Both the position numbers and the translations under genes were made by a program. Shown one piece after another: positions 13,815 to 16,760 of a stretch of 64,000 nt of DNA. Location of the stretch: NCBI RefSeq assembly GCF_016125955.1, contig NZ_JADEVE010000184.1:62001-126000 (forward strand). Direction: 5' to 3'. The stretch is from Acetomicrobium sp. S15 = DSM 107314. GTDB lineage: Bacteria > Synergistota > Synergistia > Synergistales > Thermosynergistaceae. The notes under the pieces were generated by a model. It had not been told where the DNA came from and made no database searches. It saw only the letters and a list, made by a program, of their open reading frames with translations. Position 1 is the first letter of the stretch, and the number at the start of each line of letters is the position of its first letter.

Positions 13815-14399
13815 CCGTTACCCCTCCCGTTTTTAAAAGAGTCATAGGATCACGACAACTATGCTTTTTACTTATCATATTATCTTAGAAACGTCAAGAT
13901 AGGGTTCTCCGCTGTAAGACGACGTAATTTCGTCTTGGCCATAGCGCATGACCCATTTGCTTAATTACTACTTTGATCATCAATACTACGACGTGAATTA
14001 TGAGAATTAAGAAAATACCCGGTATTATCTGTAAGGCTAATTGCTACAAGGACACATTTCAACTTAATTAGCTGCAATCTATTATGTTTTTCGCATGATT
14101 TTGATGGATTTTGCGTACAATAATTTGTCTCACCCTTGACAAATTGAGAGATCAAGGTTAAATTAACAATCAAGCGATTATGGTGTGTTCGAATGATGAT
14201 AACATATATAATGCTAAAATTACTGAGATTAGCTATACCTAACATAATATACTATTTGAGGATTTTAAAGTATGAATCGTGAGAGGCGATTATGAAAGAG
14301 TGAAATTTTAGATGTAAAAGCAGTTATGGAGGGTATCATTATTCGAGGAAAGATATTTGAATCGATTATAAATTGTAAACTTACACGGAGGGATGAGAA
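13815..14399. other. AT-rich intergenic region and long leader of the tusA-yedE cluster
   Basis: About 580 bases clearly richer in A+T than the neighbours. No frame in it looks like a protein; a minus-strand 94-codon frame (13961-14245) has atypical composition. It holds a promoter at 14136-14164, giving a leader of about 230 nt before tusA. No known riboswitch was recognised. Confidence 0.45.
14136..14164 (+). promoter_or_regulatory. Promoter upstream of tusA-like gene
   Basis: TTGACA (14136-14141), 17-base spacer, TAAATT (14159-14164). GTTAAATTAAC straddles the -10, a possible operator. Confidence 0.55.
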
Positions 14400-14645
14400 A
14401 TGGCAGATTACGAGGTGTCGAGGGTCATCGATGTGAGAGGCGAAGTGTGTCCTGTGCCGGACGTGGAGACGAAGAGGGCCATAAAGGGCGCAAAAGAAGG
14501 CGAGATCCTCAAGGTGCTCGTCGATTACCCGCTTTCGGTGGAGAGAATCCCTGAGAGCGTGAAGAAGCTGGGGAGCGAGGTTTTAGAAGTTAGAAAGAAC
14601 GGCGGAAGCGACTGGGAGATCTACGTGAAGGTTAAAAAGCAATAG
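14400..14645 (+). CDS. TusA/YedF-like sulfur (selenium) carrier protein
   Basis: ATG behind CGGAGGGA. The 81-residue protein is a single TusA (SirA) domain with the signature CPVP, Cys17 being the persulfide/perselenide carrier residue. TusA proteins pass activated sulfur between partners in the cytosol; YedF-type relatives occur with selenium genes. It is the first gene of a cluster with a YedE-like membrane protein and three DsrE/F/H-like proteins. Whether it handles sulfur or selenium is not shown by its own sequence, but the putative Sec codon in the next gene makes selenium attractive. Confidence 0.9.
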   Translation: MADYEVSRVIDVRGEVCPVPDVETKRAIKGAKEGEILKVLVDYPLSVERIPESVKKLGSEVLEVRKNGGSDWEIYVKVKKQ

Positions 14646-14711
14646 AGATTGCGAATGGCGCCGTGGCGAGATGCGGCGCCATTCGCGATGAGCGAGAGGG
14701 AGGGTAAAAAC

Positions 14712-15734
14712 ATGATCTTCAGCGGTTTTTTGATTGGCCTGATATTCGGGGCGCTCTTACAGAGGAGCAGGATGTGTTTCAATTCGGCCTTCAGGGATGT
14801 GTTGCTATTCAAAGATAACTACCTTCTAAAAATGGCCTTGCTCGCCGTGGCCGTCCAGATGGTCTTAGTGCATTTGCTGGCCCAGATGGGCTTGATCGCG
14901 CTTGCGCCTTCTGGCCTCAACTGGGTTGCGAACATAGTCGGTGCGTATATCTTTGGCCTTGGCATGGTTTTGGCAGGAGGATGTGCCAGCGGCGTGACCT
15001 ATAGAGCCGGAGAAGGTCTTACAACCGCGTGGTTCGCCGCCATCTTTTACGGCGGGACGGCTTATGCCATGAGGAACGGTGGGGTATTCAGCGGCGTATG
15101 GAAATGGTTCCAAGGGTTCGGCGTTGCGCCATTTCAGTATTTTGATCAAGCCACAGGAGAAGGATTTTCAAGGCTGTATCTGCAGAAAGCCGGGCAAACG
15201 CTGCCCTCCGTCTTTGGCGTCAACCCGTGGATCGTTGTGGTCATATGCGTGGGCCTGATCCTCTGGTATGTCTTCGGCACGCAGACCAGCGAGAGGGAGT
15301 CGAAAATAGGGTTAAAAATGGCCGCCGTGCTGTTGGGCGCCGTAGGGGCTTTTGCCTGGTATTTCAGTGAACTGGTCGGAAGAAACTACGGGATGGGTAT
15401 CACGGGAGGATGGTCTAACATATGGAGCGTCTGGCTTTCGGGTAAACCCTTCAGCTGGGATGGGTTGAGTGTCTTCGGCATCGTGGTGGGCGCTGCGATA
15501 TCCGCCGTTATGGCGAAGGAATTTAAGCTCAGGATGCCGAGAAACCCCATCACATACGTGCAAGTCATGGGCGGTGGCATCGTCATGGGTTTCGGTGCCA
15601 CCATAGCTGGCGGGTGAAACATCGGTCACTTCTTCACCGGCGTGCCGGTGCTCGCGATTTCTTCTATAGTTGCTTCGGTGTTTTTTGTGTTGGGAAACTG
15701 GACGCTTGCCTGGTTCCTATACGGGCGGGAATAA
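14712..15734 (+). CDS. yedE: YedE/YeeE-family membrane transporter, putative selenoprotein (in-frame TGA = Sec302)
   Basis: ATG 14712 follows GAGAGGGAGGG. Translation to the TGA at 15615-15617 gives 301 residues ending IAGG. The same frame then continues 38 codons (NIGHFFTGVPVL...LGNWTLAWFLYG) to TAA at 15732-15734, which is the normal C terminus of the family, whose conserved motif is GGCNIGH. The TGA thus replaces the motif Cys. A hairpin CACCGG-CGTG-CCGGTG lies at 15635-15650, with a G in the first two loop bases, at a distance typical of bacterial SECIS elements. The protein has about 9-10 membrane helices with early RSRMCFNSAFRD and GGCASGVTYR motifs. YeeE/YedE proteins import thiosulfate or are linked to selenium metabolism. 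A simple nonsense mutation is the alternative. Confidence 0.8.
15615..15650 (+). promoter_or_regulatory. Candidate bacterial SECIS element
   Basis: Starts at the in-frame TGA. The stem CACCGG (15635-15640)/CCGGTG (15645-15650) closes a CGTG loop, 17 bases after the UGA. Outer ATCG/CGAT (15621-15624 and about 15654) could extend it with internal loops. It lies within the coding sequence, as in bacterial selenoprotein genes. Confidence 0.6.
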
Positions 15735-15755
15735 CTCGACGGGAGGCTTGAAGCT

Positions 15756-16112
15756 ATGAAGATAGCCATACAGGTAATGACTCCGCCCTACTCTTACCAA
15801 GATATGGACAGCGCGATAAAGATCGCCGAGGCAGCCCTCAACAAGGGACATGAGGTGGCGATATTCCTCTTTGCCGACGCAGTAAATGCTGCCAACTCGC
15901 GCGTCAAGCCGATCAGAATTGACAGGAATATTCCGAAAAAGTTAGAGGAGCTCATAAAGGAGAAGGGCTTGAGGGTTGACATTTGCGGGCTTTGTATGGA
16001 GTATAGGGGGCTTACGGAAGAGGCGATTATAGAGGGGGCGCGCCCCAGCGGGTTGCCTGAGCTGGCCAAGCTGATCGCCGAAAGCGACAGGTTCTTGAGC
16101 TTTCCTGCATGA
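15756..16112 (+). CDS. DsrE/TusD-like protein
   Basis: ATG after GGGAGG, 21 bases beyond the yedE TAA, which supports read-through of the TGA as the real gene end. The 118-residue DsrE-fold protein begins MKIAIQVMTPPYSY and has a pair Cys77 and Cys80 in ICGLC; the position corresponds to the active-site Cys of TusD/DsrE. Such proteins accept persulfide sulfur from TusA-type carriers. With the next two genes it resembles a TusBCD/DsrEFH set placed with a TusA carrier and a YedE channel. Confidence 0.85.
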   Translation: MKIAIQVMTPPYSYQDMDSAIKIAEAALNKGHEVAIFLFADAVNAANSRVKPIRIDRNIPKKLEELIKEKGLRVDICGLCMEYRGLTEEAIIEGARPSGLPELAKLIAESDRFLSFPA

Positions 16113-16123
16113 GGTGACAGACG

Positions 16124-16480
16124 ATGTCCAAGAAGGTGCTCTTTGTGGTTTATCAGTCCCCCGTGGGCTCTATATGGGTCAACGAGGCGTTTCGCACGGC
16201 TTTCGGCATGTATGGCGAGGATGTGGAGCCATCGATCCTGCTCATGAGTGAGGGCGTAGTCGCGTTGGCTCGCGAGTGTAAGCCAGAGAAATTGGGCTTG
16301 CTTTCGGTGAAGATGGTGCAGCGCTATGTCAAGCGTTACGGCACGCCCGTATATGCCGTCGGGGAAGATCTCGATACTTACGGCGTGAGGGATGTGGATG
16401 AGGGGTTTTCGGCCCAGATTATCAGAAAAGACGAACTCCCCGAGCTCTTCCGTCAACACGATTACGTGATATTCATGTGA
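16124..16480 (+). CDS. DsrF/TusC-like protein
   Basis: ATG behind GAGGTGA, 11 bases after the DsrE-like gene. The 118-residue protein has the DsrE/F fold: KKVLFVVYQSPVGSIWVNEAFRTAFG, then YGEDVEPSILLMSEGVVALA. It is likely the middle subunit of a DsrEFH/TusBCD-like complex in the cytosol; TusC-type subunits often lack a catalytic Cys, and here only Cys in ARECKPE is present. Tight spacing on both sides indicates one operon. Confidence 0.75.
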   Translation: MSKKVLFVVYQSPVGSIWVNEAFRTAFGMYGEDVEPSILLMSEGVVALARECKPEKLGLLSVKMVQRYVKRYGTPVYAVGEDLDTYGVRDVDEGFSAQIIRKDELPELFRQHDYVIFM

Positions 16481-16490
16481 GGTGAAGGCT

Positions 16491-16760
16491 ATGGCTCTTA
16501 TTTTGATAAAATACGGCCCAGATCATCCGGCGGAAGGGGTAAAGCTTTCGAGTGCAAGGGAGGGAGATTGTGCGGTACTCGTCCAAAACGGCGTCTATTG
16601 GGCTGCCTGTGATGCCTTGAAAGACGCAAAATGTCCGGTCTACGCCATAAAGGACGACTTCCTTGCCAGGGGTTATGAGGAAGAACAACTCGATATCGAG
16701 CTTATAGACTACGATGCTTTAGTCGAGCTGATTGAGAGAAACGAAGGGTTCCTGGGTTAG
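16491..16760 (+). CDS. DsrH/TusB-like protein
   Basis: ATG 16491 is chosen with GAGGTGA (16479-16485) upstream; the GTG at 16482 lies within that Shine-Dalgarno. The 89-residue protein reads ALILIKYGPDHPAEG, then REGDCAVLVQNGVYWAA and KCPVYAIKDDFLARG, the usual DsrH/TusB layout (small, one strand-loop with VLLIQDGVYAA-like core). It closes the five-gene cluster and is followed by a terminator at 16796. Confidence 0.75.
   Translation: MALILIKYGPDHPAEGVKLSSAREGDCAVLVQNGVYWAACDALKDAKCPVYAIKDDFLARGYEEEQLDIELIDYDALVELIERNEGFLG

Follow-up and report, generated by a model that had tools for sequence, protein, structure and literature searches.

The window, a 64,000-nucleotide stretch of DNA from Acetomicrobium sp. 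S15, carries five genes on the forward strand between positions 14400 and 16760, in the order tusA–tsuA–dsrE–dsrF–dsrH. The features are listed below with the evidence for each in brackets.

14400..14645, + strand: tusA/tsuB-like gene for a sulfur carrier of 81 aa with a CPxP motif that includes Cys17 (Pfam TusA, 77 bits)
14712..15734, + strand: tsuA, predicted full-length thiosulfate importer of 340 residues with relay residues C22, C91 and U302 (NF052577; PDB 6leo)
15615..15617, + strand: in-frame TGA, predicted Sec302, at the column of Cys293 in Spirochaeta thermophila TsuA (alignments, sister species, selenocysteine machinery)
15635..15650, + strand: candidate SECIS hairpin with six Watson–Crick pairs and a CGTG loop from +24 nt (grdA loop at equal distance)
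15756..16112, + strand: DsrE/TusD-like sulfurtransferase subunit of 118 aa with Cys77 and Cys80 (Pfam DsrE, 91 bits; PDB DsrE 2hy5)
16124..16480, + strand: DsrF/TusC-like subunit of 118 aa (weak TusC match, 24.7 bits; mainly position in the cluster)
16491..16760, + strand: DsrH/TusB-like subunit of 89 aa (TIGR03011, 51.3 bits against a cut-off of 49.2; PDB TM0979)

The tsuA frame starts at ATG 14712, with GGAGGG upstream, and its TGA stands in the context GGG-TGA-AAC-ATC-GGT-CAC. The frame continues past this codon for 38 codons to the TAA at 15732-15734. When the tail is translated, the gap between tsuA and dsrE is 21 nt, and the two gaps that follow are 11 and 10 nt; a protein ending at the TGA would leave 138 nt before dsrE. 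An earlier sequence-only reading of this locus was accurate in all its coordinates (TGA at 15615-15617, TAA at 15732, a hairpin 17 nt past the TGA whose second loop base is G) and in its residue numbers, Sec302 counted from ATG 14712, Cys17 of TusA, and Cys77 and Cys80 of the DsrE-like protein.

The carrier upstream of tsuA has the motif RGEVCPVPD, and its closest matches in the PDB are TM0983 (1jdq) and, within the TsuA–TsuB construct of S. thermophila, the YeeD (TsuB) portion. Among the curated models for DsrEFH/TusBCD, only the DsrH-like member reaches its cut-off (TusB); TusD scores 66.8 bits against 89.25 and TusC 24.7 bits against cut-offs of 79–94.15, and the DsrE and DsrF proteins are assigned as relatives. 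Ahead of the cluster, about 500 bases (13880-14400) hold no evident gene and are A+T-rich by eye. This stretch includes a promoter-like site at 14136-14164, TTGACA and TAAATT separated by 17 nt.

Family identity of the transporter

The sequence-only reading took the transporter for one of YedE type, a type associated with selenium traits, that feeds a selenium/sulfur relay. The label of a YedE selenium transporter in a selenium relay is not supported. The product of tsuA scores 485.4 bits with the TsuA equivalog model NF052577 (cut-off 400), covering profile positions 1-330 of 330, and fails the seleno-YedE model TIGR04112 (56.6 bits, cut-off 200) as well as the YedE/FdhT model NF033796 (134 bits, cut-off 350). 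Because NF052577 is passed and TIGR04112 is failed, we correct the label to TsuA thiosulfate importer. The protein is 56% identical to S. thermophila TsuA/YeeE (6leo); C22 and C91 bear the same numbers in both proteins, and the TGA falls at the C293 column. All three relay residues of a TsuA are therefore found, provided that selenocysteine counts as the equivalent of cysteine. The TusA-family CPxP partner expected of a TsuA is encoded at 14400-14645. Of 188 Synergistota genomes, just two pass the NF052577 cut-off, both from this genus and each with one internal TGA. A control search found a match to the TsuA model in Thermotoga maritima.

The five-gene order recurs, with a Cys codon in tsuA, in Thermosipho and Coprothermobacter. 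The part of the earlier reading that saw a dedicated sulfur-relay cluster is supported. The recurrence with Cys argues against a relay of selenium, and none of the four cluster partners is selenium-specific. What a YedE-type selenium transporter can claim is distant homology, visible in the 57 and 134 bits mentioned above; both scores are far under their cut-offs, the TsuA equivalog is passed instead, and selA–selB, selC and selD lie on contigs other than that of tsuA. We regard a selenium transporter within a selenium relay as improbable. From comparison with known TsuA proteins, the transporter most probably carries thiosulfate or its sulfane sulfur, with selenium being in the protein and not in the cargo.

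The in-frame TGA and the selenocysteine machinery

The sequence-only reading had named the absence of selC or selB as an observation that would speak against it; all four genes of the machinery are found in the genome. A tRNA-Sec with a TCA anticodon was identified at 77.6 bits, SelA (569 bits) and SelB (369 bits) are encoded by adjacent genes, and SelD scores 346 bits. The selD gene (L066, G000 C388:123188-124117) itself contains a TGA in frame; a 7-bp hairpin whose loop, GGC, lies at +18 comes after it, and for this reason SelD of Acetomicrobium sp. S15 is probably a selenoprotein too. The GrdA gene of the same genome also contains an in-frame TGA. A second, weak match to the SelD model (70 bits, below the cut-off; L067, G000 C73:44596-45354) was seen on the grdA contig.

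At the TGA column, cysteine stands in S. thermophila TsuA and in eight more close relatives of full length, which come from Thermotogota and Coprothermobacter. The same TGA is found in a second species, Synergistales bacterium 54_24, the one other genome of the family that was compared; its protein is 96% identical and comes from a separate assembly. Relatives with neither Cys nor TGA at this column, the other contrary result anticipated by the earlier reading, are absent from the alignment. The two species differ in the 38 codons past the TGA by five synonymous and no non-synonymous codons; before the TGA they differ by 63 synonymous and 13 non-synonymous codons (dN 0.018, dS 0.376). Full-length TsuA bearing selenocysteine was found in these two closely related species only, in a Synergistota survey and one genome-contig scan, and a search of a plasmid collection for such a relative returned distant proteins only. 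A simple screen of the window yielded 28 read-through TGA frames; by eye, a conserved Cys context was seen in the tsuA frame only.

A change of the genetic code that makes TGA a general sense codon was ruled out, as dsrE and dsrF both terminate at ordinary TGA stops. These same stops, just downstream, might suggest that the TGA in tsuA is a genuine stop in a transporter gene that is truncated or decaying, and the hairpin by itself is too weak to argue otherwise. However, the tail shows no amino-acid changes between the two species while its synonymous sites drift, and a protein cut short at the TGA would lack the first relay residue, which is indispensable. The remaining cluster is intact in both species of the genus, and the TGA codons of grdA and selD are read as selenocysteine on similar evidence. 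A genuine stop is therefore very unlikely in our judgment.

The hairpin behind the tsuA TGA, CACCGG-CGTG-CCGGTG, spans +18 to +33 from the TGA with G among its first two loop bases, and its loop starts at the same distance (+24 nt) as the candidate loop in grdA of the same genome. A 6-bp stem that satisfies the loop-G rule occurs by chance after 15% of nearby ordinary codons when G-U pairs are allowed and after 1.1% when only Watson–Crick pairs are counted; among synonymous re-codings, about 5% reach the folding stability of the tsuA hairpin. Because the 15% figure applies once G-U pairs are admitted, the hairpin alone is non-significant and constitutes weak stand-alone evidence for a SECIS. 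Folding alone is not relied on either, since folding from the TGA onward yields another structure that exceeds the SECIS-like hairpin slightly in stability, and the z-score is unremarkable. Seven of eight Cys-bearing full-length relatives have little structure at this site, and the eighth (L056) folds differently, at a similar energy. An Rfam search at the TGA site found no RNA family.

Cysteine and selenocysteine in half-size homologues

Half-size PmpA-like YeeE proteins match the TsuA model over its C-terminal half, and the PmpA cysteine has been matched to Cys293 of TsuA (PMC11582611). Among 30 Synergistota loci for such proteins, the column equivalent to Cys293 is TGA in nine (L071-L075, L078, L081, L082 and L086) and Cys in 21. 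Their tree requires five changes between the Cys and Sec labels, at least four of them on supported branches. A stable hairpin, CUGAGCG-loop-CGCUUCAG or near-identical, follows the TGA in all nine Sec genes and ends about 33 nt past the codon, a distance equal to that in tsuA of the window. Judged from these sequences, PmpA-like proteins in Synergistota are a case of repeated Cys/Sec switching at one column. One gene with the Cys codon TGC (L084, genome G029) retains the hairpin of its Sec relatives. This combination of a Cys codon with a kept hairpin looks like a recent Sec-to-Cys change.

The half-size genes also bear on the rival explanation that a TGC or TGT was turned into TGA by a sequencing or assembly error. 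The assembly is a draft of 438 contigs, which leaves room for such errors, but the same TGA recurs in the independent assembly of the second species, and the equivalent column also holds TGA in half-size homologues of the phylum. The likelihood of an error is negligible.

Four lines agree, namely the machinery, the conservation, the Cys-bearing homologues and the recurrence in half-size proteins, and because of this agreement we infer that selenocysteine is actually inserted. The earlier proposal of selenocysteine at position 302 is well supported by the Cys column, the TGA of the sister species, the constraint on the tail and the presence of the Sec machinery. It is highly probable that tsuA specifies a full-length thiosulfate importer of the TsuA type and that SelA, SelB, SelC and SelD, guided by the hairpin behind the UGA, decode this codon as Sec302. 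An annotation that stops tsuA at the TGA drops an essential residue together with the end of the protein.

Proposed sulfur relay and comparison with known systems

In S. thermophila, C293, C91 and C22 are the first to third cysteines of the relay and C17 of YeeD is the fourth (PMC11073785). Both C91 and C293 are indispensable in TsuA (PMC11582611). Sec302 would take the place of the outermost relay cysteine, Cys293 of S. thermophila TsuA. External thiosulfate would be captured at Sec302, moved inward past Cys91 and then Cys22, and handed over to the TusA/TsuB-like carrier encoded alongside, at its Cys17, from which the DsrE/F/H-like proteins might carry the sulfane sulfur onward. By comparison with the S. 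thermophila relay, the order Sec302, C91, C22 and TusA Cys17 is likely.

An advantage of selenium over sulfur is conceivable. By general selenium chemistry, a selenolate would favour a covalent Se–S step over a hydrogen bond. A selenolate at position 302, ionised at neutral pH, might form a transient covalent Se–S bond with the sulfane sulfur in place of an S–H···S hydrogen bond, and selection on that step might drive the repeated exchange of Cys and Sec; we put this forward as a rather doubtful possibility. If it were true, sulfur import would depend on the supply of selenium, since without selenocysteine the protein stops ahead of an essential residue. The relay along the three TsuA cysteines has been proposed to use hydrogen bonds (PMC11073785), and the natural Sec-for-Cys exchange at the first relay residue offers a probe of hydrogen bonding versus covalent chemistry.

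Synergistota is a phylum known to be rich in selenoproteins (PMC5029168). Selenocysteine in YeeE/YedE proteins (PF04143) was predicted earlier with the motif GUxSG, for example in WP_012471001.1 (PMC13188914). Since selenocysteine-containing YeeE/YedE proteins had been predicted before, the Acetomicrobium Sec-TsuA is a further member of this known selenoprotein family, one of a mechanistically studied subtype. A non-exhaustive literature search found no report of a full-length TsuA with selenocysteine in place of C293. The published motif GUxSG is compatible both with GCASG, the sequence around C91, and with GCPSG, which surrounds the C293-like residue of the half-size proteins. The present case extends selenoproteins to a transporter subtype of known structure, and the half-size proteins show Cys and Sec replacing each other repeatedly at a single column across the phylum.

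The closest known system is S. thermophila TsuA (PDB 6leo and 8j4c; NF052577), which resembles the Acetomicrobium protein in sequence, length class, the positions of C22 and C91 and the TusA/YeeD partner, and differs in having Cys at the first relay position where Sec is predicted here. The clusters of Thermosipho and Coprothermobacter have the same genes in the same order, whereas their tsuA has a Cys codon, mostly without a hairpin behind it. T. maritima TM0983 and TM0979 are solved relatives of the products of the two end genes of the cluster. YedE/FdhT (NF033796) and seleno-YedE (TIGR04112) are distant relatives within one Pfam family, but the tsuA product falls short of their curated cut-offs, and the gene neighbourhood for selenium is absent here. 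The YeeE/YedE selenoproteins represented by WP_012471001.1 share the Pfam family and a predicted Sec, which they carry in GUxSG, whereas the full-length TsuA described here has GUNIGH. The Sec PmpA-like proteins of Synergistota share both the predicted Sec at the column matching Cys293 and the hairpin past the TGA, and differ in being half-size, in their motif GUPSGHG and in the PmpB-like gene that follows in the one case read (L028).
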